Source: Scenedesmus sp. ARA3
Taxonomy: Eukaryota; Chlorophyta; Chlorophyceae; Sphaeropleales; Scenedesmaceae
Direction: 5' to 3'
DNA length: 64,000 nucleotides
Assembly (NCBI GenBank): GCA_004335835.1
Contig: RWJK01001681.1
Coordinates: 1-64,000, forward strand
Each line of letters begins with the position of its first letter. The first letter of the stretch is position 1. The position numbers and the translations under genes are program-made. Below the pieces are notes generated by a model. That model was given only the letters and a program-made list of their open reading frames with translations, was not told the origin of the DNA and did not search any database. Positions 8,799 through 61,251 of the stretch are shown in pieces.

Positions 8799-10496
8799 AT
8801 GGCTTTCGCCCTTCGGTCTCGCGTGCCCGTCAAGAGCCAAACTGTCAAGTCTCAAGCGCCAGCATGCAAGGCTCGCAGGCCCCTCGTCTGCCGCGCAGTG
8901 CTTAACCTTGAGCCTCCTAAGCATACACCGGAGCCTGCCAAGCGCGATGTGTCTGTCAAGGCCACTGGCGCTGATGGAGAGGCACTGCCCCTGCCAGACC
9001 AGCCCGAGCAGTCGCAGCGCGTGTCGCTCACGCCTTCCCTGCTGGATGCCATCGTTGAGAACACCGTCAAGGTGCCCTACAACGCCTACAACAGTGCGCT
9101 GCAGGCTCACCCGCTGACGACCAAGGCGTGCACCAGCATGGTGGGCTTCATTCTGGGCGACCTCATCGCGCAGGTACGTTATTGGGTCATGATACTGCTT
9201 CAAGGCAGCCAGTTTGCACATCACGTCGATGTACAGCGGCCAGCGTTTCGACAGTTTCGGCAGCAGCAGCAGCAGCAGCAGCAGCACATGGATGTTGCAT
9301 GCCCCACATGAGCCTGCATGGGCATGTGCAGCACCATCATGGTTCGTTTCCTGCTACTGCATAGTCATCAGCTGCAAGCCCAGTGCATAGCGTGCTGCAT
9401 GCCAGCAACAGGCATATGCGCCAGCATGGCCTATGCTGGCTAAGCAGCAGCAGCAGCGAGCTTGCTCTGCGCATGTTGACTGCCTCTGTTGACAGCATGC
9501 AGCATCTCGTGACAGTTTATACTGCGCAGCAGCCATAGCCTGTTGGCAGCGTCTTCAGCAGTTAATCTTGCACACATCACTACTGTCACAGCCACCACCA
9601 GCAGCGCTCATGGCCTGACCGCTGCCCTCCCTGTGCCCTTCTACCATCCCAATTCAACCGCACTTCCCTCATACAGCACTTCGGCCACCCGCATGCCAGC
9701 GTTGACGTCATGCGCGCAGCGCGCCTGGGCGCGTATGGCCTGCTGATTGACGGCCCCATCGGCAGCAAGTGGTATGATGTGCTTGAGACGTATGTGTTCC
9801 CCAAGGACCCCATCTCCACCAAGGCAGTGCTCACCAAGACAGCGCTGGACCAGGTGGTGTACGCAACCATCATGACAGGTGCGTGCAGTGGCTTGTGAAG
9901 TCATTGGGCAATGCAATTGGGCTATGTTGGCTTGATGATGTGGGAGGCACCTTCGTTGCTGCGGCTGGTGGTTTGCATGTTGATAGCCGCTGCCGAGTAG
10001 CTGGTGCGTGTCATCTAGCAGCAGCCGGATTGCGTGTCATGGGCAGCACTCGAGTCGCCCGCTGCAACATGGCCTGCATCAAACTGCAGCACGCTGGCTG
10101 CATGCTGTTGGCTGTTTACCTTTGCCAGCCAACTCCGCAGTTGCACTTTCTGATCCTCTTTCTGATCCTCTTCCTGATGCTCATGCTGTACTCCACCTGC
10201 CTCCTCCCGTGCACCCTCCTCTCTCCACCCCTGCAGCCGTCTACTTTGCTGTCATCCGCTGCCTTGAGGGCCATCCCGAGCTCGTCATGACCACCCTGCA
10301 AGCCAAGTTCCTGCCCACACTGGCAGCCAATTACATGATCTGGCCGCTGGCACACCTGATCAACTTCCGCTTCGTGCCAAGCGAGTACCGCATTCTGTAC
10401 AACAACGTGGTCTGCGTGGCGTGGCTGACTGGGCTGTCCTTCCTCACACACAGCAAGATCAACTTCATGCAGCTGCTGCACCTGCCGCACTTCTGA
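8799..10496 (+). CDS. Mpv17/PMP22 family membrane protein, plastid-targeted
   Basis: Mpv17/PMP22 proteins are small four-span membrane proteins of organelle membranes, often discussed as channels; the exact substrate is unknown. Exons 8799-9173, 9677-9878 and 10237-10496 join in phase (0, then 1) to give 278 residues. The N-terminus is a typical transit peptide, Ser/Arg/Lys-rich and ending near VCRAV, so plastid import is likely, not peroxisome or mitochondrion. Family landmarks follow: the conserved opening YNSALQAHPLTTKACTS and GDLIAQ in exon 1, the GPIGSKWYDVLE block in exon 2, and the diagnostic C-terminal NYMIWPLAHLINFRFVPSEY in exon 3. The ATG at 8799 is used because it starts the transit peptide; there is no upstream in-frame ATG nearby. 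It is convergent with psaE. Confidence 0.93.
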
Positions 10497-12393
10497 ATGG
10501 AGTGCGGTGTGTGTGGCTAGGAGCGCGTAGTGTTGATGTGCTGCAGCAGTGAGTGGGAGGGCAGCTGCTGCGGCTGCAGCAGCAGCGAGTGTAGGGTGTT
10601 GCTGCAGCAGTGAGTGCGAGGGCAGCAGGAGTGGTCGGAAGGCCATGCACTGCCGCGGTGTGTGTTTTGGCATCGAGACGGTGATTACTTGAGGGGGTCT
10701 CAAATGCATGTATGTATGTGTTGCTGTGTATGTACATCAGGACAGTGTGTTGGGAGCTGCTGCAGCTTGCAGGAGCGGCTGTGTGGCCTTCAGCAGCTCA
10801 GCAGTTTTTGTTGATTAGAATTCACAGAGCAAGCGAAGCAGCATGCGTGTGCTGCCAGGTGTCTTGCCAATGATGCGTGGTTTGCTGTGTACCATCTTCT
10901 TTCGTTCATGTGTCCGAGTTGTGTGATCAGACAGCGTCCGGCAGACCTAAACAGTCCCGGATGCACTTCTGCACATCGCAAGTACAGGCACTGCAGTGTG
11001 CCACTACTTTCGTGTGTCCTCTTGCCTTTTCAGCGTTCTGCGCATTGTGAGCAATATCGCTGCAGTGTGTTGTAGCTGCAGTAGGTTCTCTCTTTTACAA
11101 CTCTTCTACACCCTTTGTATGTGTGCCATAGTGTAGTTTGTGTACTTCTTTGCTTGCATGTATCACCTGCTTTCAGAACATCAGGATGTGGTACATGACG
11201 TGGGTGGGTGCCAAACAGGATGAGTGCAACAGAGCCTACTGTGTGTGCATGGTACTGCAAAGCAGGTGGTACGTCACATATACTATGTGTTGCCATTCGC
11301 CTTCCACACTATGTCACTTTGCCTCTACTCTGCCCATGCTCAGTAAAGTGTGCTGGGACAAAGTGAAGTGTGCTGGGCAGAAGTGGAATTTCAGGTGTGT
11401 GTTTAGAGTTGCCGGGAGGGCGAGGGACATGATGCTGGCAGCAGCAGAGCTGTGTATAAGCAGCCTGGCATGTGGAGCCACTGATAGGGTACTTGGTACT
11501 GGCTGGGACGCTGAAATCTATTTGTTGTTGGGAGCTCACTTAACGTTGCTACGCACAGTGCGGTTGTGGGCTGCATCCCGACATGCAGAGGTACTGGAAT
11601 TTTATTGATAACCAGGGGATGGTCTTGTGGCCATATTTGTTGCAAGGCAGCTTGCAGCTGGGCAAGCACACAATGCCTCATGCTGCTGTATGGGGTGTGC
11701 TGCATGGGGTGAACGCAAAGCTTGGCATGAATGGCAGGAAAGGCAGGTGTGTGGGTGGTGAAGGGATGGCACAATGCTGACGAAGCATGTGATGCGTTCA
11801 ACGCAAAGCATGTGACAAAGCAACGCTGGGGCGGGTGTGTTGGTGGCAGAGGATTGCATGCTGGTCATGGTGTGCAATTTGCTGCACTTCCACTCTCTAT
11901 CTTGCGAGCTTGGGGCGCTTGCTGCTGTTCCGGGCTGCTAGGTGTGTTGTTCTAGTGAGCAAGTGTGCAGAACCCATCATTTCGTTGTGTAGACAGCATC
12001 TTTTTTGCCTTTTGACAGTGCAGCGTTTTGTTCTTGTGTAGATCTATTGCTGTGCCTGCTGCTTGCAGGTGCACGCGCGTCAGCCTTAGCCTGGTATGGG
12101 GTGCATACCAGCTGACAGCAGACGAGTGCTGTTTTGATCAAAACACTGCACGCGCTGCAGCAGCAGGAGAGTTTAGGGCTCCAGCATGTGATGCATTCAT
12201 CAACAGCAGAATGTGGAGTGCATTCATCAACAGCAGAATGTTGAGTGCATTTTTTATGTCTTGACTGACTAGGCAGCATCCACCTGTGGTGGAGGAGTTG
12301 TTGCACTGTATGTATTGAGTCTGGGCGTATGCCTAATCTGGGCATATGCCTAAACTGATTGTTCTCAAAGCAGTTGTTCTGCGTGCTGACCAG

Positions 12394-12398
12394 TGTAA
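12394..12398 (+). terminator. Candidate poly(A) signal TGTAA for the Mpv17-like gene
   Basis: This is the first TGTAA on the plus strand after the stop at 10496; further copies are at 12478 and 12573. TGTAA is the established poly(A) signal of Chlamydomonas-type green algae. The position coincides with the change in strand composition between the two convergent genes. Confidence 0.45.
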
Positions 12399-13330
12399 CG
12401 TCATAGTTGAGGATCCTGCAAAAACCTTCAGCATGATGATCTTTAGCATGCTGATGACATCAGATCAGCGGGCTGGCTGTAAATTATATGAACATGCACT
12501 AATGGCTGAACTGCTTAAGCTACATATGCACACTTCGGTTCCAGCTCTTACTCAGCCGTTTGATCAATAACATGTAAAGCTGCTGCTGCACTGCAACCTG
12601 CACTTGTAGTCAGCTTAGCAAGATTCTATACTCTCACCAGCTGCAAATGACGACCTTATCCTGTCTCTGCAATTACGTTGCGCTGAACAGAATGTTGCAC
12701 TGTTGTCCTGTATGGCTCCCCTGAGGGGTTACCAAGCCTAGTGAACAGCGTAACAAACCTTGCTGTCATCACCTGTACTTCTGCACCGCTATCACCCCAG
12801 CAGCCCCTGAGCAACATTCAAGGGAGGTCCAGTTACAAAGGCAACCGAAGCACAACAGAGCAAACACCACTTGCACTGGCTGAGGAGCGCTGCTGAGCGC
12901 GTCCGCCTGTTGAGCGCTCCTGAACCACAAGACGTACAAACACCAACTGTTCAAACAGACCAGCATGCACACAGCACGTGTGCACTCCCCAGCTGGCCAT
13001 TGCACAGCGGCAGATCCGTCACACGCTGCTGCGCAGAATCCAAGCCAAACCCATTACGATACTGGCTGACGCTGCTGCTGCGATAATCCAAAACACACAG
13101 CATCAGGCTGCAACCAGAGCTGCAAACACAGCGGTCATACGCTACGTGTTACGCAGAAGCTGCTGCTCCGGTGCAGCCTCCAATGCGGGCTCATCAACAT
13201 GCCAGCTGCGCGCGCTGTGCTGCTGCCACATGGCTGCAGCTATCCAGCCGCAGCAGCAGCGGCGGTTGATGTTGCTGAGGCATCACCAGTGCATGGCTGC
13301 ACTGGGCGACACTACCTGCAGCAGCAACAG

Positions 13331-13335
13331 TTACA
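13331..13335 (-). terminator. Candidate poly(A) signal TGTAA for psaE
   Basis: This is the first minus-strand TGTAA (TTACA on the plus strand) downstream of the psaE stop, giving a 3' UTR of about 355 nt. A second candidate lies at 12833-12837. Confidence 0.5.
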
Positions 13336-13688
13336 CGCAGAACAGACGTGTCAAGAGTCCATTTCAGTTTAATGGGCGGTTGCTGCAATGAAGCTGCTGC
13401 TCCGGTGCTGTCCAGCAAATTGGAGCTGTTCCGTGCGACACGTGTCAATACTGCCAGGCAACAGTGGAGCCACCTTGAGCCGCCTTTTGAGTCAACACCA
13501 CACACCGCCAGCGCGAACTGACCATTCAGCTGATACACAGTAGAGCCACACGCCGCACTGCTTCTTGCTGTCAGCATACCAGCATCTCCTGCAGCACCAG
13601 CACATGCAGCATGTTCCAGGCCCCAACCACTGCCCCCCGCACCTGTCTACAAATCCCTATGGGCGGTTGCTGCAGTGAAGCTGCTGCT

Positions 13689-14946
13689 TTACTTGGTGGC
13701 AGGCTGCACCTCGTCCAGGGCAAAGTTGTTGGTGTTCACGCCAGCGTAGTTCTGGGTCTCGAAACGCACCACAACTGGGTACAGGATGCCGCTCTGGTAG
13801 CGTTTTGAGATGAAAAGAACACAGAAACAAGCGACAGGCAGTAGCAGCAGTGTCAGCCGCGAGAACATGGGCTGACCCTCCAGCAACAATGCTTGAACAG
13901 TGGGTGTATGCGAGCATCAGCTGCGCAGGTATGCAAGCGCACCGCTGCTAGTTGCTGCTGCTGCTGCAGCTGGATCAGCAGAGGGCTGCTTCCAAAGCAC
14001 CGTTAAAAAGCCATCGGCATGCCCAAACACGGCTCTTCCAGGCCAGGAACTCATTGAGCCCATCCAATGATAACAGTGCCATTGGTGTGCCAACCACTGC
14101 AGCTGAGCTGATGCGCGCCGCTGCTGGCAAAACTAGTCCTACATGCTAGACAGGTGCACAGATTTGTCCCTGAGGAGCTACTGCCCGCTGGACAGCTGCG
14201 TCTCAAACGCCAAGGAAAGCATCCATTCCCTGCCATGGCAATGCTGCTGTCACTGCTGCTTGCAGCCCATGCGCTGCTCCTGCAAGGATGACGCGCTCCT
14301 GCAGCTGTTCCTGCAAGTACAACGCCCATGCTGTCCCAGCCAGCAGGGCAGCTGCTCGCCAGCAGTTGGTCTCACCTGGTCAACTGACACAACCTTGCCG
14401 GTCTGGTTGTACCAGTAGCTCTCGGGCCTCAGGATCTTAACCTGCAAGCAGCAGATCACTGATCAGCCGCTACGCAGATATGCTCGCAGCGCTGCTAGCA
14501 CTGCCTGCTGTTCCTGCCCTGGAACAGCACTCCAGGAACGCAGCTGCTGCGTAGTTTGGTGCTGTTCGACTACCAAGCGCCTGACTGATCCAGCAACTGC
14601 GATCCTGCTGGTGCTCAGCTGCCTTGGGCCCCAGAGAATCGAGCTGCTGCTGCTGCTCTTACCTGGGAGCCACGCTTGGGGCCAACCTCCTTCTTGGGGG
14701 CGGCCTTGGGGGCAGCGGCTGCCTCGGCCTCTGCACGCACAACCAGCCTGGCTGCGCGCTGGGGGCGAGCTGCAGCATCAAACAAGAGCGGAGCTATCAG
14801 TATCACTGCGCCCGCGTTTCCGGCCACGTCGAGGCCAGCTTGTCTACCAAACGCACGAACACGCCGTTTGAATCTATTTATCCCTGCATGGCAGTACCTG
14901 CCACAGTCTGGGCTGCGCAGAAAGACTTGTTGGCGAGGGATGCCAT
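13689..14946 (-). CDS. psaE: Photosystem I reaction centre subunit IV (PsaE), precursor
   Basis: PsaE is a small stromal subunit of photosystem I that helps dock ferredoxin and supports cyclic electron flow. Exons 14946-14898, 14769-14663, 14441-14376 and 13793-13689 join in phase (1, 0, 0) to give 108 residues, the usual length. Residues 1 to about 40 form a transit peptide ([17 protein letters not shown], then Arg/Ala-rich, ending near VVRAEAE). The mature part has the SH3-like core in order: [18 protein letters not shown], then [20 protein letters not shown], then [15 protein letters not shown]. All landmarks are intact. The ATG at 14946 starts a canonical transit peptide. It is divergent from TAF9, and an AT-rich stretch upstream (about 15220-15290) may belong to the promoter. 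Confidence 0.97.
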
Positions 14947-16545
14947 TTTTTCTGCTGCTGGCTCAGGGGCTGATGGCAAGGATGTGCAAAAGGCAGAGAG
15001 ATCGGTGTGTACCGTGCGCTTACACTGCCACTAGCTTGCAGACGAGGAAACCACCCGTGAGATCTCATCGCGGTTTAGGGCATCGCTGTGAAGGACGAAA
15101 GCGATGGGAGTAGTGGTGGCAAGTGCACGCTTGAAACGATTTCTACTGTTGATCGGTATCAAGCTTTTACTTGGACGCTGTTCTGCGTACGTTTGGCTTC
15201 ATGACTACAATTCTGCACTGGTGAACATGATTTTCATAACGCTTTCGCTTACTAAATTCATTAAACATATGCAAATGTCTCAAAAAATGTTTGTCAGCGG
15301 TATCCGGCGACGCTTGCCGGGCATTTTGGATGTTGCAGCTGACACATTCAGGTGGTCATCAAGCAGCTGCTGCAGTGTTCCTGCACATATGATGTACAGT
15401 CACCGTCATACTACACGCTACTGACAGTCAGATGCAATGTACAAGTGTTCTTTCAGGTTGATTCAGCGAGCTGACATGGGGTTCTGGCAAGTTGGCATGC
15501 ATGTACTCTTGACACTTTGAAGAAGGCGTCTATTCTCCGCACCACGTATGTTCTGCCCTGCTTGTGTATATTAATTTCTTGCTTTTGCTGATACTCAATC
15601 TTAGCACAGCAGGTGCATGGCCAGATTCACGGTTGCGTGGCAACCAAATGGTCAGAACATGAGTGACCTGAAGCCAGGTCTGCAATTGCTTGTGTTTCCT
15701 TGATCGGCTTGCAGAGCATCAGCACGCCGTAGGATGTCACTGCATATAACTCCTTATCTTAACTTTGAAAAATCCGATCTGCCAACATAGGTTGCAATGG
15801 TACCTGTCACAGAGCCCGAGAGCCCCGGTGTTACCCAGCGGGGCAATCGCTCCCCGACAGGGCCTGCTTCACCTCTGCAGCCTCGATAAAGCAAACATGA
15901 GCACTTTCTCTCAAAATAAAGGTCACATGTGACTTTGAAGCAGAGCAAAAACCAAACATTCAAGCGCAACGAAGTTACCCAGCTGTGCCCAGGGACCTGC
16001 AAGCTGTTGTTGCAGCACCGATTGTTTACGATCAGGCACTTAAGCAGCGGGGAAGTGCTTGCAGGCTTCTTGGAGTTGCAGCAATTCCGTAGTGCGTGTG
16101 CCACAGCAGGGCACTCAGTACAGCAGCAGTCTACAGCTGCTACTGAGCTTTGTAGTGGCTTTGCTTACCAACTAGGGCTGTTTCAGGAGCATCAGGCGAG
16201 CGTCGACATCACCGATCACCAGGATGTGCCGCAAGCATCCGTGCAGAGCCATCTGGCTGCGTTTGCTAGTGGCCGCCCTGGGCTCAATCAGACAAATGAT
16301 CGCTTTGCGCAGCCTGCCTGCTGGCACAAAGCACTGCTGGTCTGTGAATGCTTTTCATGAAAGGTAACAACGTGCTTCTGTTGCCCTCTGGCGTTGCTTT
16401 CTATCCAGCAGCAGCCTCGGCGGTGGCAACAGCATCCTGCAAGCAGCAGCAGTCGCAGCAAGAAGCAGCAGCAGCAGCAGCAGCAATCCCTGCCAGCACT
16501 CCCTGCAGCAGCTGAACCCCACGCCAGGCACCAGCAGCTGCTGCT
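14947..16545. other. Divergent region between psaE and TAF9
   Basis: No gene is supported. It holds the presumed promoters of both genes. About 15120-15300 is notably AT-rich, whereas 16390-16545, next to the TAF9 start, is CAG-repeat-rich and probably 5' UTR. Confidence 0.4.
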
Positions 16546-17401
16546 ATGGCGGCTAACGCAGCTGCGGGGACTGCCCCCAGCAGCAGCAGCGCTGCAGGCA
16601 GGCACACAGACCTCCCGAGTGATGCTGTTGCTGTGCGCAACATCCTGAAAACAATGGGTGTGGAGCAGCACGAGCCTCGCGTGGTCAACATGCTGCTGGA
16701 CTTTGTCTACAGTTATGTGTCAGGGGTGCTGTCCGATGCAGCAGCCTACGCAGAACAGGTGTGTGCTCGCACGTTTGATCAGCAGTTGCCTGCACAGCGC
16801 TCTGCCGCGTTCCTGCAAGCGTGTAGAACCTGGTTTGCACAAAGTGGGGGTGATTTGTGTATGCTATGAGACTGAGGTGCATGTGGGCTGTCGATCACTT
16901 GATGTGTGCTTCGTCTATATTTTGGCTGCTGCCAGCCATAATCATGGCACGGGCTAGGGATGCTGCCAGCCGCAGCCGGCGTGATGCGTGCGCGCCAACA
17001 CCCTTTTGGAGTTCCACCTTCTCACGTGCACCATGCACCTGCTGCTGCTGCAGGTCGGGCGGCCAGCTGGCGAAGTAGAGAACGAGGATGTAGTGCTGGC
17101 TGTGCAGACACGCGCGCAGCTGTCATTCGTGCCTCAGCCGCCGGTGGAGCTGGTGCGGTCGCTGGCTGACCAAGTCAACAACAGGCGGCTGCCTGAGTTT
17201 GACCCAAGGTGAGCGTGCTGCAGCGGTTTTCGCAGCCGATGTCTGGGTTTTAGTAGAGCGCTGCACACTCAACAGGCCATTTGGCATGAACAGTGATAGG
17301 TGATTGCTGCTACTTGTTTGCGTGAAGCTGCGGCCATTGCCGCTGCGCCTTCCTTGCTTCATCACAAAGTCGTGAACAGCACGGCCTGCTCAACACAAAG
17401 C

Positions 17402-17435
<34 letters not shown>

Positions 17436-17563
17436 GTTTGTGTGCCTGCAGGGCTGGCTTTGGGCTGCGTGTGCCTCCTGATGAGCACCTGCTGGTGCAG
17501 CCCAACTGGCGCGTCAATGTGGCAGCACACCAGCAGGGGCACGCGCAGCGCGGCACGCACTGA
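16546..17563 (+). CDS. TAF9: Transcription initiation factor TFIID subunit 9 (TAF9)
   Basis: TAF9 is a histone-fold subunit of TFIID (and of SAGA in many eukaryotes), pairing with TAF6 to help recruit RNA polymerase II in the nucleus. Exons 16546-16758, 17054-17208 and 17452-17563 join in phase (0, 2) to give 159 residues. The histone fold spans about residues 20-95: DLPSDAVAVRNILKTMGVE, EPRVVNMLLDFVYSYVSGVL, then ENEDVVLAVQTRAQLSF in exon 2. The conserved FVPQPPVELVRSLADQVN segment follows, and exon 3 carries the GFGLRVPPDEHLLVQPNW block seen in TAF9 C-termini. The length is that of a compact TAF9 without the long tail found in animals. The start ATG precedes an Ala/Ser-rich leader. Confidence 0.92.
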
Positions 17564-19420
17564 TAGGGTGCTTGCCTGCACTTCTAGGGTATGTGTTTAA
17601 CCGCCAGTCAGCTGCGCTCAATCTAGGCGGATGATGGTCAGGCAATGCAGTAGACCAGAGCACTGCCGGGCTGTGGCAAGCAGTAAAGGCTGCAGTGGGC
17701 AGGGACCCTATCCGGGTACCTCATGCAGCGCAGTGAGGTTTGTACCATAGTGTATGGTGTGCAAATGGACAGCAGACGTGCCCCTGAGTAGGTCGTGCAT
17801 TGCAATCTGCAGTTGTGGTCCAGCAGCAGCACCGGCTGCTTGATTTAAGCTGCTTCTGGCACATGTTTGACTGCAGCACATCTTGCCTGCACGCGCGGGG
17901 CGTCACCTGCTGAGCAGCAAATGAGTGAAGCATATGTGGTGTTGCACTCTCATCTGTAACAGTGGAATCAGCAGCAGCCTTTGCTTTATCTGGCATGCGT
18001 CCAGGGCTACAGGCAGCAGCTGCGGCGGCCTAGCATTACTGCATGACCCTGCAGCGATTGGTGGGTTGGCATGTGTGGTGGAAGTTATGGCGCTGCAGCT
18101 GCTCAATGCTGCCGCAGCAATGCGGCTGCTGTCAGCGCCATTGACCTTGAAGATTTGTTTGCAAGCAGCTGTCACCAGGAGCATATATAACGAGCTGCCA
18201 GCACAGGCTATATCAGCGCATTGGCGGGTGTTGCGCATGTGCTGCCGTATGGTTGGGTGCGGTGAGACCCAGGAAAGTTCACGTGTAGCGCTCACATGCC
18301 GCACTGCAAGATGTGCGGCTTGATTTGCGCTCATGTGCGTAGTTTGCGTACTGGCTTGACGTCTGACTGTTTGATTTGGGCGGCAGCACTTTGCGGCAGA
18401 CTGCAATACAGCAGGGCACCACCTGAGTGCGTGCGCTGCTTGAAGGAATTGGTGCAGCACACAGGGATGCTCTGCCGTGTGACTGCAGTGTCAGGTGTGC
18501 AAGTAGTGTGCATACACGTACGATACGCCGATCTGCATAGTATTGTCCTGCATGCTCCGTTCTTCAATTGTGTCTGTCATGACAGTGGTCATGAGTAGGG
18601 TTCTGGGAGCGCACAGTTGGTGAACAGCGACATGTAACCTGGCAGAGGCTTCCTGGGTGTCTGCATCGCCGTTCAAGGTCTGGTTTCTCATTAGATTCCG
18701 CTGTCGCTGTTGTGCTGCCTGTGCCTGTTGGTGAACACAGTTTGGTGCAGGGCACACCCAGAGCAGTTGCTGAAGCGACAGGCACAGCAACGTCAGCAAA
18801 CGCAGAACTTGCTGAAAGAAGTTTCGTTGACGTCGGACTCCCATGCTGACGTGATCAAGCGAGGCACAGCCTCGACAAGGTTGCACCGTGGCACAGAGAA
18901 AGAGATAAGGCACGACAAGCCCGAGTTCACGCAGCTAGTGCTGAGCAGCCCTAGCAGCGAACGTAGCCACCAAGCACCATCTCAACTGCAATGGTGAGTT
19001 GCATGTTCCGCTTCAGAGTTCAGCAGTTCACACCCAGGATGCCCCTGCAGCAGCAGGAGCTTGCTGCCTGAAGCTGCGAGGATCTCAGGCACTCAACACG
19101 CTTTCATATACAGCACCTCAACAACATTACAAGCATACGTATCAAGATCATACAGGCTGTGCACCGTATGCAGAAATAGCAAGTGGTCACATGTTCACGT
19201 CTGGCGCCGCTGCTGCTTGTCCTGGCAGTTGTAACCCACTAAATGCCTTTGCATCTGTTGATGTTGCTGCTCTCTTGTCATGAATGCTGCATCCTTCACT
19301 ATGTCATTCATATCAGTAACAATTGGGCTACGTACACCAGCGCACGTCACAAAGGAACTCAAGGCGGGATGCTGACCACGGTGGTTCGAGCTGTACTGCG
19401 TCCTGCACGCTGTCGTTGAC
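17564..19420. other. Intergenic / possible 5' region of SNX1
   Basis: No full gene is seen. TGTAA at 17955-17959 is a candidate TAF9 poly(A) signal. A strong donor-like ATG|GTGAGT at about 18992 could end a 5' exon of the sorting nexin gene, but it does not fit the phase of the next coding exon, so it may lie in the 5' UTR. Confidence 0.35.
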
Positions 19421-19540
19421 TCGCAGGATCCTCTCTTTGGGGGTGACAGCAGCAACGTACGGCATGGCTCCTTTTCAAACCCCACAGGGCCTCCCCCGCC
19501 ATATGAGTCAGTCATAACAGGCTCTGCAAGCCACAGCATC

Positions 19541-20961
19541 ATGCACGCTGCACCAGAGCACCAAGCAGCAGCACCAGGCAGTGGCATGCAGGCAGGACCA
19601 GCAGCAGCAAATGGCAGCAGCAGCGCGGGCGGCGGTCCTGCCTACAGCAGTGACTTTGAGATAGTGGTGGCTGACCCAGTGAAACAGGGAGAGGGCGTAT
19701 CAGCATATGTATCATACAAGGTGCGCTGAGCTTCAAATCTGTGCTTACATCCTGCTGCTGGGTATTTCCGTCTGTCCATCCTTGCCATAGCGCTGCTTGT
19801 CTGCAGTTGCAGGTGCGCGCCACCATGCGGCTGCCGCGGTTACAACCGGCCCTGCTGCGAAGTCATATAACACGTGCAGCAACTGCTGCTCCTATTGAGA
19901 TGTGTGTCTTCCTGCAGATGCGCACTGCCACGGGGCTGCCGCAGTGCAGCACACCCTGACCTGACAGGCCATCACCCAACACGTGCAGCAGCAGCAGCAG
20001 CTGCTCATATCAAGCTGCTGGCTGCTTATCTGCACCTGCAGGTGCGCACTACTGCACGGCTGTCGCAGTACAACCGGCACCTCTGCAAGGTCATTGTCTC
20101 AAACCTGCAGCAGCCGCTGCTCCAGTCAAGTTGTGTATCGCCCTTGTTTGGTGCCTCTGCAGGTGCGCACCACCACACGGCTGCCGGCAGTACAACAGGC
20201 CCTCCTGCGAGGTCATCACAATACACGTGACTTGTGTACTGCCTTGGCTCTATTGCTTTGCCTCCCTGCAGGTGCGCACCACCACGCGGCTGCCGGCAGT
20301 ACAACAGGCCCTCCTGCGAGGTCATTGTCTCAAACCTGCAGCAGCTGCTGCTCCAATCAAGTCGTGTGTTGCCCTTGTTTGCTGTCTCTGCAGGTGCGCA
20401 CCACCACGCGGCTGCCGCAGTACACATGCAGTGCAGCATTACACCAAGCTGCTCCTGCCCTGCCTCTTTCTTGCTTGGAATCCTCGTTGCTTGCCTGCAG
20501 GTGCGCACCACCACGCGGCTGCCGCAGTACAACCGGCCCTCCTGCGAGGTCATCCGGCGCTTCCGCGACTTTGTGCACCTGGAGGGGCAGCTGGCTGAGA
20601 AGCACAAGGGAGTCATCCTGCCGCCGCTGCCAGAAAAGAACGCGGTGCAGAAGTTCCAGATGAGCCAGGAGTTCATAGAGGACCGGCGGCGCGCGCTGCA
20701 GGTGCGGGGCGATGCCGGGGTTTTGTGATATGTTGTGTGGTTGCTGCCGGAGAAGAACGCGGTGCAGAAGTTCCAGATGAGCCAGGAGTTCCTAGAGGAC
20801 CGGCGGCGCGCGCTGCAGGTGCATTCTTCGCGGATTTGCATAAACTGTGGCCTTGCCTTAGTTGAGTGCTTGGCATGTTTGGGGTTGGCGCGTGTCTTGT
20901 CCTGTGGTGAGTGTATGATGTGGAATCATCTGCCGCTGCTGCTGCGTGTAATCTTCATCCT

Positions 20962-20996
<35 letters not shown>

Positions 20997-23541
20997 GCTG
21001 CTTTTGCACAGGTTTCCTGAACCCGCTTACTGCTCACCCCTTGCTGGCCAAGAGCGCTAACGTTTCTTTCTGCTGCCCGTGCTGCTGCTGCTGCTGCCGC
21101 GCAGGTCTTCCTGAACCGCGTTGCTGCGCACCCCGTGCTGGCCAAGAGCGCGTCGCTGCAGCTGTTCCTGGAGGCGACCGAGGACACCTGGGCGGTTGAG
21201 ATGGCGCGCGGACAGGTGCGGTGTGGTGTGCTGGCACAGTGCTACAACACATATGCATAGTGACACTGCTTGTGACACGCCATGTGCTGCTACGGCACTT
21301 GGATGCCGCCACGCAATGCCACGTTACGGCATTTTGTGTGCTGCTTGTGAGCTGCATGCCAGTTACCTGCTACAGCTGCTGCTTGGCACTCCAAATATCA
21401 TAATCTTTACCGCATGGCCTGCGCCCTGCGTGCTGTTGACGCCGCTGCTACTGCTTCTGCAGGCTGCTGCTGCTGGTGCTGCTGCCGGGGGCGGCCCCAA
21501 GAAGCGCCTCGAGGATGCTGTGGGCTGGATCAAGGGCCTCGGCGCGGCAGCAACCAACATCGTGGGCAGCAGCAGCAGGGCCACAGACACAGCAGAGGAC
21601 CCAGAGTACATCAAGGTGGGGTGTCGGCTGCTGCAGGTCACAACCGGCAGTGTTGCAATGCAGGATTACAATGCAGTGTACAATGCAGCGAACACAGCAG
21701 AGGAACATAGCAGTGGAGGACCCAGAGTACATCAAGGTGGGATTGAAATGCTTTCAAACAAGGGCTGCAGGGGTGTCAGTGCATTGCAGGTACAAAGCTT
21801 GTACTTTTATATGTCCAGGAGCCCATCGTAGCTGTTGGTTTGATCCGGGGGCTCAGAATGCGGATAGTGCATATGCAGGGCAGTGCAGCAGAGCTGCAGT
21901 ACACTAAGCAGAGGCATGCCTGCAGTTGCGACGCTTCGTACGAAGCGCACACACAATGCTGCAGGGCGGCTCAGTCGCCGCATGTGCGCTGCGCGGCATG
22001 CCGCAGGGTTGGCGACATCATGTTCAACACATGTTGTTCAATGCATCTTGTTCACCACATCCTGTTTTACCACATCTTGGTCAACATAACTGGCAAACTC
22101 ACATCTGTCGCTGCACTGACATGCCGGTCCTGCCTGCAGGTGCGGGACTACCTAGTAGCGCTGGAGTCGCACCTCTCGGAGGCGCACAGGCAGGCTGCTC
22201 GGCTGACTGCCAAGGAGGTGGAGCTGGGGGAAGCAACACTGGAGTTTGGGCAGGTGGGCACAAGAGTCATCTTTCTATCAACATTGCTGCGTTGGCTGCA
22301 AGCTCTTTGTATCAGCCGAGCAGCCTGCCTGTGCGTGGCAGGCAGGGGCGTATGCATTCTGCTGTATATGCTTGCTCGGTTGTCTTCTAGGTGGCATCAT
22401 GGCTCACTGACAGATAGGCGGAGCTGGGGGAGGCCACGCTGGAATGTGGGCAGCTGACCATACGTTATTCACGCTGCTGCCGCTGCTGCTGCTGGTGCTG
22501 CTGCTGGTGCTGCTGCTGCTGCTGCTTGGCTGCTTGCTTCAAGCAGGCTCTTGAGCGGCTGGGCCGTCGGAGGAGGGCAACGTGGCAAGGGAGCAACCTT
22601 CCCGCACGCTGCTGACCGACCAACCTCCTGCTGTACTGCCTTTGCGTGCATATCCAAATCAGGCTCTAGAGCGGCTGGGCCGCCTGGAGGAGGGCAACGT
22701 GGCAAGGGAGCAATGTTCCCGTACACGGCTGACTAACCAACCTCCTGCTGTACTGCCTTTGCGTGCATATCCAAATCAGGCTCTTGAGCGGCTGGGCCGC
22801 CTGGAGGAGGGCAGCGTGAGCGAGGCGTTCAGCCAACTTGCCACTGCTGACTGTCGCACCCATGCTGTACTGTACTTGTTCATTTGCCGTACTTCAGGTT
22901 CACTGCTGTCTGTCGCACCCATGCTGTACTGTGCTGACTGTGTCAACTATCTCACTGCTGCTGCAGGCGCTTGAGCGGCTGGGCCGCCTGGAGGAGGGCA
23001 ACGTGAGCGAGGCGTTCAGCCAGATGAGCAGCCGCTCCGCGGAGCTGGTGGCGGCGCGGCGCAAGGGCTGCGAGGCGCTGGCGGCACGCTTCGAGGCGCC
23101 CTTGAAGGAGGCGGTGAGTGGGCCACAGGAGCATGTATGTTGAGCAGCAGCAGCGTGTTGCACTGCAGCAGTATGACTTGGGGATCCGTTCTCAAGCAAT
23201 TCTGCAGCAAGGGCTGCGAGGCGCTGACGGCGCGCTTCGAGGCGCCTTTGAAGGAGGCGGTGAGTAGGCCACAGGTGTACGTACAATCATGTATATGTAT
23301 GCTGAGCTGCAGCAGCTTGTTGCAGCAGCATGGCTGGCTTTGCAATCTATGCGCAGGCCACAGGTGTATGCATGTCGAGCTGCAGCAACTTGTTGCAGCA
23401 TCATGGCTTAGGTTTGGATTGTTCAAGCTAAGTCCTCACTCAAGGGCCGCGAGGTGCTGGCGGCACGCTTTGAGGCACCCCTCAAGGAGGCGGTGAGTGC
23501 ACACTCCGCCGGCACATGCTCTGTCATCATCATCATAATCT

Positions 23542-23574
<33 letters not shown>

Positions 23575-25352
23575 GGTACCAAGCAAACATTAGCTGAATG
23601 ACGGGCAGGGCGTTGCCATGATTGAGGTCGATCGCCGTGCTAGCAGCAGTCTGGCTCAGGTAAGCAAGCAAGCGTGTCGCTGCACCAACTAACAGTCGTG
23701 CTCTGGGGTGTTATTGCCAGATCGAGACACTCAACACCTGCTGGTCGCGTTGCGTGCCTGCTGCAGGTACGCAGCGTGCGCGCGGTGACTGCTGTGTGCA
23801 CCGACCGCGCTCTTGCGCTGGCAACACACATGGCTGCTAAGCACGAGGTGGATGCGAAGAAGGTAATGCATATGCTGCTGCTGCTGCAGGCGTCATTGAA
23901 GCTGAAACTTGCATGATTTCGTGCTGCTGCCAGCTTGCATCATCCGCTGAAGTTGCTTTGCATGAAAATGATGCTGGTGCAGCGAGAGCAGTGACTGTGC
24001 AGTTCTTTGTTTTGTGCACTGGTCCTGTAGTTTCAAGCACTGCGTGTATCAACGTTTCCCCAACTCGTGCCGCCGACGCTGCTGCTGCTGCTGCTGCCGC
24101 CGTGCAGGTGCGCTGGGCTAAGCTGCGGGGCACACCCGGCAGCCCTCAGGACAAGCTCACAGAGGCGGAGCGGGAGGTGAGCGGCAGTGCAGCTGTGGCT
24201 GGGCTGAGCAGAAGTCATGCCAATGTGTGAACCATGTGTAGTTGTGTTTGTGTGAATGCTAGGCGGCTGCGTGCCAGCAAGCATGACGCGTCCCGATGCA
24301 ACACAGCCCTGGGGTGGATATGCAATGTTGGCGGCGAAACAGCATGACCATGCATCTGCAGCTGGCTGTGTGTATGCACAGGTGTTGGAGGCTGAGGAGC
24401 GGCTGCGCAGCAGCAACATCAGCAGGTTGGAACGCCCGTGAACAGCAGCAAACCTTCTGTATATGCGTGCAAGTTTGTGTGTGCGCAGGTGTCGGAGGCT
24501 GAGGAGCGGCTGCGGTCCAGCAAGATTGCTTATGAGGAGCTTGTGGCCACCTCAGACCCAAACCCCAAAAAACAAACTTTAATACCAACGTTTGAACTTT
24601 TGTAGATGTTCATGTAGCACAGGTGTATGGAGGCTTAGGAGCGGCTGTGGGGCAGCAAGATGAGCAGCTTGAATTGTATGTGACAGAACATCAATCGTAC
24701 GTTTGTACCTGCACGTGTGTGCACAGGTGTCGGAGGCTGAGGAGCGGCTGCGGTCCAGCAAGATCGCTTATGAGGAGCTGGTGGCCACCATGACTGAGGA
24801 GCTGAACAGGTGGCAGAAGGAGCGCGCAGCAGACATGGCGGCGCTGCTGCGGGACTTTGCACTGGCACAGGTGTGGATGTTGCATAGTGCAGATGTATAA
24901 AGACGGTTTAGCACAGGAGATGCAAGGCTGCGCACCTCCAAGCAAAGCCAGAATGTGTGTGGGGCATTTAAGGATGTGTGGACGGCCTGAATTAAGTGTA
25001 TCGGACTGCTGCTTTGGTTTGTGTTTGAGTGCTGTATGTGCGAAGGCTCTGCTAGCCAAGGAGGGGCTATGAAGTGGCATGCGGGGAGGCGTGCTTGCAG
25101 GAGAGGCGCATGTACCTGGTGATGTGTGTGGGAGCATGCAAACTGCCTGCGATGGTTCGGCACAGGTAACTGCATTTCAAGATACATTAAACTTAAACCT
25201 GTCATGGCGTGGTGCTGTTGCTGCTGTGTTATGTCCTGCAGGCATCCATGGCCTCTGAGGGAGTGCGGGCTTGGAGTGGGCTGCTGGCTGAGCTGCAGGC
25301 AGTCCAAGGAGCAGCACCAGCAGTAGCAGCAGCGCCTGCTACAGCCACCTAA
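19541..25352 (+). CDS. SNX1: Sorting nexin 1 (Vps5-type PX-BAR retromer protein)
   Basis: SNX1 binds endosomal phosphoinositides through its PX domain and forms membrane-bending BAR dimers in the retromer pathway. Ten coding exons, all a multiple of three with phase-0 introns, join to 441 residues: 19541-19720, 20501-20701, 21105-21215, 21463-21615, 22140-22253, 22967-23113, 23767-23862, 24108-24176, 24727-24870, 25242-25352. The PX domain (about residues 37-160) shows FEIVVADPVKQGEGVSAYV, the phosphoinositide-binding RRFRDF, PPLPEKNAVQKF and EDRRRALQ. The BAR part follows plant SNX1 throughout (YLVALESHLSEAHRQAARL, LERLGRLEEGN, EEVATMTEEL-like helix, final WSGLLAELQAV). The frame stays open upstream of 19541 to 19421 and reads GPPPYESVITGS, so an extra N-terminal exon (acceptor near 19427 or 19487) is likely. 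Its introns are full of partial exon copies, listed separately. Confidence 0.92.
19813..20427 (+). repeat. Tandem array of six decayed copies of the SNX1 exon 2 start
   Basis: Copies begin at 19813, 19918, 20042, 20163, 20272 and 20394, with spacings of 105, 124, 121, 109 and 122 bp and 107 bp to the functional exon at 20501. Each copy starts with GTGCGC- or a near match right after an intact or near-intact CTGCAG acceptor, and matches the first 30 to 54 bases of exon 2. Copies 4 and 5 share the same one-base insertion, so one is a duplicate of the other, and it shifts the frame. The intron part between copies is also repeated (20096-20162 against 20327-20393). None can replace exon 2 because the matches stop early or are frameshifted. 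Confidence 0.9.
20744..20818 (+). repeat. Near-identical intronic copy of the SNX1 exon 2 3' end
   Basis: This 75-bp stretch matches exon 2 bases 20627-20701 with three differences, two of them synonymous and one Ile to Leu, and ends in the same CTGCAG|GTGC donor. It is in frame but has no acceptor AG at its left edge, and read-through from exon 2 meets a TGA, so it is probably not an exon. Confidence 0.9.
21012..21062 (+). repeat. Decayed copy of the SNX1 exon 3 start
   Basis: Following CACAG, this stretch resembles bases 21105-21155 (FLNRVAAHPVLAKSA coding) with scattered mismatches, about 93 bp upstream of the real exon. Confidence 0.8.
21715..21735 (+). repeat. Copy of the SNX1 exon 4 end with donor
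   Basis: Identical to the last 21 bases of exon 4 (coding EDPEYIK), followed by the same GTGGG donor start. It lies 120 bp downstream of the real exon end at 21615. Confidence 0.85.
22418..22453 (+). repeat. Decayed copy of the SNX1 exon 5 end
   Basis: Resembles the exon 5 end (coding VELGEATLEFGQ, to 22253) with a few substitutions; it lies about 200 bp downstream in the intron. Confidence 0.75.
22547..22843 (+). repeat. Three copies of the SNX1 exon 6 start
   Basis: Copies start at 22547, 22663 and 22780 (spacing 116-117 bp), each right after CAG and matching the functional exon 6 start at 22967 (coding ALERLGRLEEGN). The third copy extends over about 60 bases with few changes. The intronic spacer between copies is repeated as well. 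Confidence 0.9.
23209..23492 (+). repeat. Two copies of the SNX1 exon 6 end
   Basis: The 51-base segments 23209-23259 and 23442-23492 match the last 51 bases of exon 6 (23063-23113), and each ends in GAGGCG|GTGAGT or GTGAG, reproducing the donor. Confidence 0.9.
24382..24665 (+). repeat. Three copies of the SNX1 exon 9 start
   Basis: Copies at 24382-24426, 24489-24552 and 24623-24665 precede functional exon 9 (24727). The middle copy matches 64 bases with only two synonymous differences and has its own CGCAG acceptor. The third has an in-frame stop-creating change (GAGG to TAGG). Confidence 0.9.
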
Positions 25353-44434: not shown

Positions 44435-44539
44435 GGTGTGCTGAGCAAACTTGACGGTGCGCTGAGCAAACCTCACGGTGCGCTGAGCAAACTTCACGGT
44501 GCGCTGAGCAAACTTCACGGTGCGCTGAGCAAACTTCAC
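44435..44539. repeat. 21-bp tandem repeat, five units
   Basis: Five head-to-tail units of GGTGCGCTGAGCAAACTTCAC, with one or two changes in the first two units. It lies in a gene-free region; the open frames through it are by-products of the 21-bp period. Confidence 0.95.
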
Positions 44540-44755
44540 GGTGAAGCCTGGTCTCTGAGTTGGCAGGGGAGGCACTTGAACAGTTTGGATTAACAACATA
44601 CCTAGGCATCATGGCGTGTACACCCCTGTAGCAGCAGCAGCAGCAGCAGCAGCAGCAAGAGTGGCAGGCATGCAGCACTCAGGGAGCTAGATCGACCTGC
44701 TGCATGTCCCCAGCCGTGAGATGACAGGCTGCAGCACTTGGGGCCTGACACACAA

Positions 44756-46005: not shown

Positions 46006-49000
46006 TTACTTGTCATTTGTCATGCTGCAGCCCACCTGCCACTGCATCATGAGCTCTGTGGCTGCAGGTCCTTTGGCAGCTAGCTGCTGCAGGGCCTGAC
46101 CAGGCATCATGACAGGCGCCAGCAGCAGCCGGTGCGTCACAGCGTTCTGCACAAGCACAACAACACCAGCAGCAGCAGCAAGTGCCCCCATACAACTGAG
46201 TGCGCGTGTGAATGCTCCGATTTGCAGCGAATCTATCAGGATGCTAGCAGATAGCGTTTGCCGGTAGGTCATGCCTTAGCCACCACACCTGCCTGCTGGA
46301 ATAGATAGATAGAGGGGTTACACGGTGTGTTCATGCGGCATACGCCACCACAGACACCTGGTAAAATAGGAAGCTGCAAGCAGCTCAGCTCGGGCTGTCA
46401 CTCTGAGGTTTTAACCTGCCTGCTGTGCTGCTTCCCAACACCCCACTAGGCCCCGTATTTGAGGCAACTGCAACCGCCACATCAAATATGCTCAAACAGG
46501 CACACTTGCAGCGTTGCATACACTCGCAACTCGTGGCCAGTAGCCGCAGCGCACGCACCTGCCACGGGAGCGTCATTAGCTCCCGCTGCACCAGCCGTGG
46601 AGGCCCATCATGCCGCTCCTCCAGGCTCACTCCAGCCTGCTTTGACACCACCACAGGCAGCCGCCACACCTGCGACAGCTCTGTCAGCAGCGCAGCAGCA
46701 GCAGCCTGCACCCGCTGCGCCGACAGGCCTGCTGCTGCTGCTGCTGCGACAGGGCCTTGGAAGCCGGGTGTGTATGGAGGTGCTGCTGCTGCTGAACTGG
46801 TCAAGTTGTGACTGCCGCTGCTGCTGGCGGCGGCTGCTCTGTCGTGCCATACGTATGCTGAGATGTTGTCCACCAGCAGCAGCCTGCAGCGCCCCTGTTT
46901 GATAACAAATGCGGCACAAGGCAGCGCATCTTGCTAATAGTTGACTGCATGCGCGTGGCTCAGCCAGGCGGCATCAGAAGCACACAGACTGACTCGGAGC
47001 GCTGCATGCCGGCATGACAGCAGCCAGGCAGCAAGTGCTGGCAGCTGCTGCAACAGTATTGCGTGCAAGCAGAGCTGCGCTGTGCTTGTCTGACAAGCGC
47101 GCACTAGGACCGCGCATGATGTCCCTGTTGGTATAATCATGTCCGCGCATAACCATGTCCCTGTTGGTATGATTATGTCCCTGTTGGTGCAATCATGCCC
47201 CTGTTGGTGCAATCATGCCCCTGTTGGTGCAATCATGTCCCTGTTGGTTGCAGTGCCAAGCCTGCTGATCTGCAGCTGTGCCAGGCAGCCGGGCATGCTG
47301 TGCCGTGCATAGTTATTAAAACGTGCAAAATGATGCAGCCACGATCTTCTGGATGAATCTTGAACACTGTGCTTGCGTATCTGGCCCTGGCTTGTGGGCC
47401 TGCAGTCACCGGTTAAGAATCACCACAGGTGGTTTGGGAGTGGCTCCCCTTTTTGGGCTCAACTCTTGAGAGTAAGCTTGCTGGAGAAGCTTGTTAATGA
47501 TTGATTGTGCTTGCAGGAAGGGCCTCACCTGCAGCTGAGCAAGGTAGCTGGGCAAGCTGTTGAGCACCAGCAGCAGCTCCATGCTGCTAAAGCAGCGGAA
47601 CTGCAGCAGGCCGGTGCAGCGCGCAGCAGACAGTGCAGACAGCGCGGACAAACAGAAACAGTACTGGAGTGAGCTTTGCGCATGCTGTCAGCATTTAACA
47701 CAGAGCACCTATTGTGCAGCAGTGTGCTTTGACTCAACTGATGAAAAGAGAAAGAGAAGCAGGTCTACTTTGGGCGGGAGGTGTTGCCCGGCGAGGACAG
47801 TGTGTCATCTCACACGCAGGTTACCCACAGCGAGTTGCGGTGAGCTGGCATGCAGCAACGCTGATGCTTGCACCATGTCTGCAAGCTACACTGTTCAGCA
47901 GTGTAAGAGCTGGCAAGGAGTGCAGGGCGCTGGGTGGCCCTGTGCAGGCTGAAGCATGGTGTATGCACACGTTGCACACCACATGCATCAGGCACTCACT
48001 AAGTGAAACTGCTCTAGAGCAGTCCCCAGCTGTTGTAGGGACTGTGTGGCAACTGCAGCAGCAGCAGCAGCAGCAGCAGCCACGGTCACAGCAGTGCTGG
48101 AATGGTACAGCCAGTCTTATTTCTTATGCAGTGCTTGCCCGCCACACGGCAGCCATCACAGCAGCAAAACCAACAAAACCTGGCAGGAATGCAGGAGCAT
48201 TGTTTGTTTGTTCACAGCAAGCTAGCTAGCAGAGGTAATTGACTATGTCTCTTGATGACATGCAAAACTTTGATGAACTGAAAACCTTACCTGCTGAGGG
48301 GGGCAAGCGGCCCGTCACTAGCTGCAGGGCAGACAGTGTACACCAGCGTTGCAGACAGCAGGTCAGCAGCACTGCTAAAGGCTGAGATGTGATCACCTGA
48401 TAAAGGCGGTGTCTGTGGCCTGCAGGGTTCTGCAATACTGGTGGGTCCAATGTGAGGTCCTGCATGCTGCACTGCATGTGAAATGTTTGAAAGGCGCAGT
48501 ACAAAACTGCAGGACTGCACACAACATGCAGCACACTAGCGGTACAACTTACAGACCAGAGCTGCACTGTGGCCTGCATAGCACAGCTGCCAAGGTGGTT
48601 GAGTGTGATTCTGGCATGCAATTGATGCGCTGCAGTGCTACAGCAGCGCACCTGCAACAGCCGTAGGGTGTCAAACTTGCCATCACAGTCAATCACCACT
48701 ACGTGCTCTGCTTGCAGGAAACACAGGGAGAGAAGGTAGCCGGGGTCAAAGTGCAGTCAGCAAGTCAACATCTGGTGGATCGTTGAAGCACTGTGTACTG
48801 TGCTTAGTCAACTCTTCAGCTATGGCAGCGAAAGCATTCCACAAGTGCCTTACAGACAGGATGTTTCTGTGAAGACAGGTGACAACAGAAAAGCGAACGA
48901 GGCGGTTGCCTCAGTAAAGTCAGACCTGCTGCAGTAGAGAACCAGATTGTGCTTGATGCATCAGCACAAGCAGCTATGACACATCCAGGCTGGAGCATCC

Positions 49001-61193: not shown

Positions 61194-61251
<58 letters not shown>

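Follow-up and report, generated by a model that had tools for sequence, protein, structure and literature searches.

Introns of a sorting nexin gene of a scenedesmacean alga contain decaying copies of the adjoining exon edges, with similar local repeats at other loci of the genome

The introns of the sorting nexin gene SNX1 of the green alga Scenedesmus sp. ARA3, located on contig RWJK01001681.1 within an analysed stretch of 64,000 nucleotides (hereafter the window), contain truncated and partly decayed copies of the edges of their own neighbouring exons. Copies of this kind were also found at exon edges of kinesin and chaperonin genes, the usual spacing being about 100-140 bp, and short direct repeats with a characteristic spacing are spread over many loci of the assembly. 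In our opinion, judging from the sequence, the copies are probably decayed remnants of recurrent local duplications in the same orientation, which were followed by recombination through their exon-like parts.

The product of the gene is a PX-Vps5 sorting nexin (Pfam domains PX and Vps5; the best solved match is 'Sorting nexin 1'). It is 99% identical to P0001, the protein OEZ86_005618 of Tetradesmus obliquus, and this identity suggests T. obliquus, or an alga closely related to it, as the source. The gene model includes ten exons and nine introns, all nine of the GT-AG type, and the joined exons give the sequence of P0001, apart from the N-terminal methionine, which was left unplaced, and a small number of residues. 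The assembly holding the window has a size of 87.3 Mb and consists of 1567 contigs of up to 437 kb.

Edges of the flanking exons, taken from exon sequence alone and no longer than 80 nt, were compared with the adjoining intron on the same strand by the Smith-Waterman method, and each score was set against 200 dinucleotide shuffles of that intron. All the 18 copies listed in a first-pass annotation of this DNA were recovered, each above the best of the 200 shuffles of its host intron. They comprise six copies of the start of exon 2, three each of the starts of exons 6 and 9, two of the end of exon 6, and single copies of the end of exon 2, the start of exon 3, the end of exon 4 and the end of exon 5 (Table 1); an additional match of 19 nt at 24263-24281 was marginal. 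A self-comparison of the whole gene gave the arrangement described in that annotation, namely copies of exon starts upstream of the exon and copies of exon ends downstream of it, on the same strand. A gradation of identity, also described there, was found as well and extends from 76 to 100%, with copy q as the case of exclusively synonymous changes.

Other statements of the first-pass annotation had to be narrowed. Preservation of the neighbouring splice sites is complete for acceptors (AG in 13/13) and incomplete for donors (GT in four of five). Five of the six copies of the exon 2 start read CAG/GTGCGC, where the slash marks the junction, and in principle could be used either as an acceptor or as a donor. 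The recurrence every 105-124 bp applies to the exon 2 array, whereas the other copies in SNX1 are 93-234 bp apart. One end of each SNX1 copy falls at most 5 nt from the junction. The introns were said to be built largely of copies, and this was an overstatement: recognisable exon copies make up 874 of 4486 intron bases (19%), with a maximum of 39% in intron 1. Six introns of 403-780 bp bear copies, and the edge search found none in introns 3, 7 and 9 (247, 245 and 371 bp, respectively).

Table 1. Exons of SNX1 and copies of exon edges in its introns (positions in the window; exons numbered as in the first-pass annotation; a slash marks the splice junction)
Feature	Position	Strand	Remarks
Exon 1	19427..19720	+	ends AAG/GTGCGC; protein P0001
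Copy f, exon 2 start	19813..19866	+	89% identity, frameshifted, CAG kept
Copy e, exon 2 start	19918..19973	+	76% identity, frameshift and stop, CAG kept
Copy d, exon 2 start	20042..20094	+	83% identity, CAG kept
Copy c, exon 2 start	20163..20217	+	95% identity, frameshifted; upstream flank resembles copy a
Copy b, exon 2 start	20272..20325	+	96% identity, frameshifted; exon part resembles c, downstream flank resembles d
Copy a, exon 2 start	20394..20424	+	31 nt, 100% identity
Exon 2, part of PX domain	20501..20701	+	gene model, Pfam
Copy, exon 2 end	20743..20818	+	96% identity, donor GT kept, offset 117
Copy, exon 3 start	21012..21057	+	86% identity
Exon 3	21105..21215	+	gene model
Exon 4	21463..21615	+	gene model
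Copy, exon 4 end	21716..21736	+	21 nt, 100% identity, donor GT kept
Exon 5	22140..22253	+	gene model
Copy, exon 5 end	22401..22453	+	79% identity, in-frame stop, donor lost
Copy z, exon 6 start	22547..22584	+	92% identity, frameshifted
Copy y, exon 6 start	22663..22701	+	95% identity
Copy x, exon 6 start	22780..22835	+	96% identity; its upstream flank resembles y (92%) and is unrelated to that of exon 6
Exon 6	22967..23113	+	gene model
Copy, exon 6 end	23207..23259	+	94% identity, donor kept; intron flank also homologous (junction-spanning unit)
Second copy, exon 6 end	23441..23492	+	88% identity, donor kept
Exon 7	23767..23862	+	gene model
Exon 8	24108..24176	+	gene model
Copy r, exon 9 start	24382..24420	+	87% identity, CAG kept
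Copy q, exon 9 start	24489..24551	+	97% identity; sole changes are two synonymous
Copy p, exon 9 start	24627..24661	+	88% identity, in-frame stop
Exon 9	24727..24870	+	gene model
Exon 10, including stop codon	25242..25352	+	gene model

Local direct repeats are common outside this gene. In a sample taken by rule (starting at C30, one contig in 75, and of each its bases 10001-20000 as far as they exist; 20 stretches, 165.5 kb), 99 pairs were found, versus zero in each of five local shuffles. When these stretches were combined with the window (229.5 kb), pairs of at least 50 bits spaced by 90-130 bp numbered 44 in direct and none in inverted orientation, and beyond 2 kb there was one direct and one inverted pair; the repeats form 78 clusters in 16 of the 21 loci and occupy 8.8% of the bases. 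A pooled set of 47 loci (299.7 kb), which includes genes chosen by family, yielded 192 pairs with offsets peaking at 117-122 bp and a weak rise near 234 bp, the median of offsets under 200 bp being 119 bp (n = 116). Of these pairs, 101 belong to the rule-taken stretches (165.5 kb), 12 to the kinesins (45.0 kb), 39 to the chaperonins (25.2 kb), 24 to SNX1 (5.9 kb) and 16 to the rest of the window (58.1 kb), and 22 of the 47 loci have no local pairs.

The phenomenon is not confined to SNX1. The gene ranks first among the 47 loci in repeat density (4.05 pairs/kb), which is no independent test because it was selected by the earlier reader for its density, but a minus-strand CCT/TCP-1 chaperonin gene (locus L048, G000:C530:29900-35700) is close to it with 3.45 pairs/kb. 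This second locus contains three units with a period of 117 bp and identity of 97-98%, the last of which lies at the start of an exon hit by Pfam. At the offset of 117 bp the identity is 98% over 176 bp, intron homology included, and the array is contiguous. In the window itself, more local repeats occur outside SNX1 at 50688-51629 (offsets 119 and 152 bp), and the positions 44435-44543, 47119-47248 and 61194-61251 are occupied by short minisatellites (21 bp, 20 bp) and by a microsatellite of GAT.

A search of introns with their flanking exons against controls, proposed in the first-pass annotation, was extended beyond SNX1 and detected copies at kinesin and chaperonin edges as well. Spliced models of 20 kinesin genes were built from Pfam hits without transcript support, and some of their micro-exons are doubtful. 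Five CCT genes were represented by Pfam-hit exons only, their spliced models being poor elsewhere, and these edges are approximate. Model introns shorter than 120 bp, Pfam hits with stops and overlapping duplicate pairs were dropped. At a score of at least 40, five of 165 kinesin edges and eight of 18 SNX1 edges matched their own intron (13/183 in total; in this count and in that of edge-crossing pairs, the SNX1 exon ends are up to two bases off the final model). The controls for the same 183 edges gave one match with the reverse complement and a frequency of 0.000 with introns of other genes (20 draws per edge).

In the chaperonin genes, matches were obtained for 5/23 exon starts, 5/23 exon ends and 0/23 exon middles, and for no edges compared with the reverse complement or foreign flanks. 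For exons no shorter than 130 nt in the kinesins and SNX1, studied by 45-nt queries throughout, the edges matched in 4/108 and 6/9 cases and the middles in 0/68 and 0/5, respectively. Summed over the three sets, 20/163 edges versus 0/96 middles have copies, with CCT edge queries of 80 nt and CCT middle queries of 45 nt. Pairs crossing an exon edge, as opposed to those lying in the intron only, account for 7/8 in the kinesins and 11/15 in SNX1 (18/23 jointly), where 0.46 and 0.30, respectively, would be expected from placement. Two adjoining kinesin-like genes (L036 and L037, G000:C1428:148200-158000) look like a tandem gene duplicate.

Lengthening of the host introns, which the first-pass annotation had anticipated, was confirmed in the kinesins: introns with a copy have a median of 351 bp (n = 7, two of these being halves of one intron split by the model at the copy) versus 228.5 bp without a copy (n = 84; p = 6e-5), and the gain of about 120 bp corresponds to about one unit. 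According to an excerpted table of a published comparison, the mean intron is 462 bp in T. obliquus UTEX393 and 230-302 bp in R. subcapitata, M. neglectum, C. zofingiensis and C. reinhardtii (PMC5966456). Local duplications could help explain the longer introns of T. obliquus.

In the genes with a known reading frame, the copies look dead. Nonsynonymous substitutions make up 36 of the 65 changed codons in SNX1 copies, 12/25 in kinesins (doubtful micro-exons included) and 31/53 in CCT genes, that is, 79/143 when pooled, and frameshifting indels are present in five of the 18 SNX1 copies. The simulated nonsynonymous share was 0.58-0.68 for a dead copy beside a constrained exon at equal neutral rates and 0.26-0.27 for two coding lineages. 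The SNX1, kinesin and CCT sets do not look like mutually exclusive duplicated exons, the copies of which would be open and under coding constraint; the coding-like pairs of rule-taken loci, treated below, differ in this respect. A search of Rfam at the gathering threshold (six sources) gave no match. The first-pass annotation had also supposed that one copy remains in the messenger RNA (mRNA). The annotated protein P0001 does hold one, and it carries each edge once, just as the related proteins P0002 and P0005 do. The copies are presumably excluded from mRNA. The protein P0008 of a related alga, transcript-derived judging by its name, appears to run past exon 6 into a retained intron 6 and then to stop. 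At another locus (L012:1560-1900), an intronic copy of an exon end has five synonymous changes, a changed last codon and a lost donor.

The structure of the units was studied in 31 single pairs with identity of at least 85%. All of them have a spacer of 17-257 bp (median 62) outside the alignment, and consequently most units are not plain head-to-tail duplications as they stand. The offset does not correlate with copy length (-0.03). Together with the spacers, this independence fits a unit of about 118 bp, part of which still aligns, better than free insertion. The spacer resembles one of the flanks at p < 0.05 in 22 to 26 of 59 pairs, depending on scoring.

The behaviour of similarity around splice junctions was examined by ungapped profiles of 22 acceptor and 11 donor copies (12 and 5 from SNX1, 5 and 1 from kinesins, 5 and 5 from rule-taken loci). 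These had been selected for being copies of edges, and in ten of the 33 the choice was made by eye. On the exon side, the identity is 0.88 for acceptors and 0.86 for donors. On the intron side, it is 0.43-0.47 at 7-15 nt and 0.18-0.31 beyond 15 nt, compared with 0.25-0.29 for unrelated introns. A gapped comparison, in which CCT copies and five rule-taken donor cases were left out, showed similar flanks at p < 0.05 in 9/29 copy-exon pairs (about 1.5 expected by chance): 2/13 SNX1 acceptors, 2/5 SNX1 donors, 3/6 kinesin and 2/5 rule-taken copies. Thus, of the tandem duplications across exon-intron junctions suggested in the first-pass annotation, repeated local direct duplication touching the junctions is upheld, but homology of the intron flank is limited to this minority. 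Even beside exon parts of 95% identity, similarity reaches the background within about 15 nt of the splice site. A simple duplication over the junction would be expected to copy the intron as well as the exon and therefore explains only part of the picture; either the exon-like parts underwent later re-homogenisation, or the copying had an end at the splice site.

Mosaic units are present in the arrays. In SNX1 intron 1, the exon-like parts of copies b and c are 98% shared, including an extra G, and their flanks differ; the sequence upstream of c is similar to that of a (0.89), and the sequence downstream of d is similar to that of b (0.89), while copy a coincides with the exon over all its length. 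In intron 5, the flanks of x and y are shared with each other (0.92) and not with exon 6. Such mosaics are the pattern that would be expected from exchange through exon-like parts. On the minus strand of another locus (L009:1-560), an array A, B, A', B' alternates two versions of one exon end, where nearly all differences between A and B are synonymous and B' looks like a mosaic of both. Acceptor offsets of 1 modulo 3, noticed by eye in six cases, were dropped as a regularity because minus-strand cases did not follow.

Under recurrent duplication with later recombination, the explanation that we prefer, a copy would be born by local direct duplication with a step of about 90-150 bp (peak 117-122 bp) in introns and over junctions in many parts of the genome. 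The birth event may be a staggered break that is filled in and end-joined, with a tandem duplication as the result. A duplicated junction would be tolerated because one complete exon and one usable pair of splice sites remain; the intron would lengthen and the surplus copy would decay. Afterwards, exon-like parts could recombine, both among themselves and with the exon, by unequal exchange or short-tract gene conversion, and such recombination would leave exon parts similar, adjoining flanks unrelated and units mosaic. A further-reaching proposal, which we put forward only tentatively, is that exon edges are copied genome-wide in steps of about 118 bp, the exon edge itself, and not the intron, being the recombining unit and the exon seeding growth of the intron. 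Homology would then end at the splice site as a result of continued exchange between exons and their intronic copies, by conversion or unequal crossing-over, during divergence of the flanks. If true, this could help explain the difference in mean intron length between T. obliquus and the four other algae in the excerpted table cited above (PMC5966456).

Several observations weigh against this explanation. The excess of edge-crossing pairs in kinesins and SNX1 may be a matter of survivorship and is no proof of targeting, because a constrained exon partner keeps old pairs visible longer. Intron-flank homology was undetectable in 20/29 copies, some of them with 95-100% exon identity, and age is insufficient as a reason for its loss precisely because such well-preserved exon parts adjoin unrelated flanks. 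The pooled value of 79/143 agrees with the lower simulated share for dead copies, 0.58 (p = 0.28), yet it falls short of 0.67 (p = 0.002), which leaves room for some constraint or homogenisation. No pairs with identity of at least 99% were found among the 192 of the pooled loci, where three are at 97-99%; either the process has slowed down or young copies were collapsed in the assembly, and unless the latter is the case, ongoing birth is not seen.

The same must be said of the coding-like pairs in rule-taken loci, where only 20/72 changed codons are nonsynonymous in 15 non-overlapping pairs and 26/82 in all 18, proportions that a dead copy does not predict. All these pairs were chosen for their coding look with one-sided coding extension. 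Codon preference is alike in exon and copy (21 pairs, including those of the window). A bias of the mutation spectrum, polarity by codon preference and a second genomic copy were each tested as sources of the synonymous bias and did not explain it. Given the ratio close to that of dead copies in the frame-known sets, the bias is probably a by-product of picking coding-like pairs.

The abrupt fall of similarity at the splice site would be accounted for by junction-anchored copying. In this scheme, one end of each copied exon edge would be fixed at the junction or close to it, and homology would stop there from birth; the copying might proceed by template switching at CTGCAG or GTGxG, a microhomology that most splice sites have, or via an intermediate linked to splicing. 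The contrast between the exon-side and intron-side identities, the proximity of SNX1 copy ends to junctions, the lack of copied exon middles and the highly similar exon parts beside unrelated flanks are all in its favour. We nevertheless consider it doubtful, because nine of the 29 copies do have a homologous intron flank, intronic units of one array share their intron flanks at 0.89-0.92, and pairs situated wholly within SNX1 introns include comparable distances (116 and 107 bp, besides others of 235 and 73 bp).

An artefact of assembly is unlikely. Two diverged haplotypes or strains stitched together could produce false local duplications in which only exons still align. Indeed, exons align here and introns do not, the spacing is near the length of short reads or k-mers, and the coding-like pairs of rule-taken loci differ with a synonymous bias. 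Stitching does not, however, agree with arrays of 3-6 units that are decayed to different degrees, carry frameshifts and stops and have in part lost their splice sites, with the lack of near-identical pairs, or with the considerable length of the contigs. Besides, exon 2 and intron 1 of SNX1 have no match elsewhere in the assembly, and ten copy-bearing segments match elsewhere at a CTG-rich stretch only (40 of 221 candidates scored); a second haplotype may, even so, have been purged.

Even less probable is a role of the copies as functional alternative exon ends, maintained by selection and used in some transcripts. The synonymous bias of the coding-like pairs and the like codon preference on both sides would suit such a role, as would the kept splice sites (acceptors 21/22, the remaining one being an indexing offset, and donors 9/11). 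It is opposed by the high nonsynonymous share where the frame is known, the frameshifted SNX1 copies and the presence of one copy only in P0001, P0002 and P0005. Moreover, the copies are truncated, and therefore the exon edge could not be replaced without further splice sites. Insertion of mobile introner-like elements, suggested by repeat units in introns of many genes, may practically be dismissed: SNX1 units copy their own exon edge and form no shared family, intron 1 has no match elsewhere in the 87-Mb assembly and intron 5 matches elsewhere around its CTG repeat only (40 of 182 candidates scored), so that for these two introns, the two tested, a mobile element is excluded on sequence grounds.

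The preferred explanation may be compared with known systems, which are characterised here from excerpts of the cited papers. The first-pass annotation knew of no described system of this extent in one gene, and among the literature matches listed no account of this extent was found, including for Scenedesmaceae and microalgae; a single-gene case in potato, however, has been published (PMC4974935). In the potato RdRp gene, a tandem duplication over an intron-exon boundary made a new intron, the exonic part becoming intronic, and the first intron has undergone a further 83-bp tandem duplication. The segment likewise spans the 3' end of an intron and the 5' start of an exon and carries splice signals. 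The excerpt describes one event in one gene, with a new intron and support from reads and RNA sequencing (PMC4974935), whereas in the alga many loci are involved, existing introns are lengthened, mostly the exon side is shared and the spacing has a clear peak. This is the nearest known case, and the mode of birth may be the same.

In the Rogers model, introns are gained by tandem duplication of AGGT, and an experiment by Hellsten et al. in 2011 belongs to it (via PMC4974935). As here, splice sites in direct order come from a local tandem duplication, but four of the five copied kinesin exon starts lack AG/GT and the copies sit in existing introns. Near intron pairs of Drosophila, 25 cases with novel intron positions, arose via regional tandem duplication (PMC2891723). 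There too an exonic copy turns into an intron, while the alga has arrays of exon edges inside existing introns. Fill-in synthesis and end joining also give rise to small tandem duplications, a common type of insertion, mostly below 100 bp (PMC8355091). These duplications are short and direct, like the birth event proposed here, but the excerpted text describes them at breaks and without a link to exons. Introners, for example those of Micromonas (PMC3488318; see also PMC9860276), are also repeated sequences in algal introns, but they are common to many genes, unlike introns 1 and 5 of SNX1. Mutually exclusive tandem exons also repeat exon sequence in the adjoining intron, but as whole functional exons (PMC9741552, PMC9013439), and not as truncated decaying edges.

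Lengthening of introns is usually ascribed to mobile elements or to small insertions, the source of which is no longer visible. In this alga, the source is legible, since the added pieces can be traced to the neighbouring exon and ranked by decay. A single genome thereby allows one to measure when introns grow, by what step and with what fate. The copies are natural decoy splice sites in an exonic context and represent a test bed for site choice by the spliceosome. Annotation of such genes calls for caution, because aligners and gene finders could take the copies for exons. Taken together, the data suggest repeated local duplication as the way in which introns lengthen in this alga.

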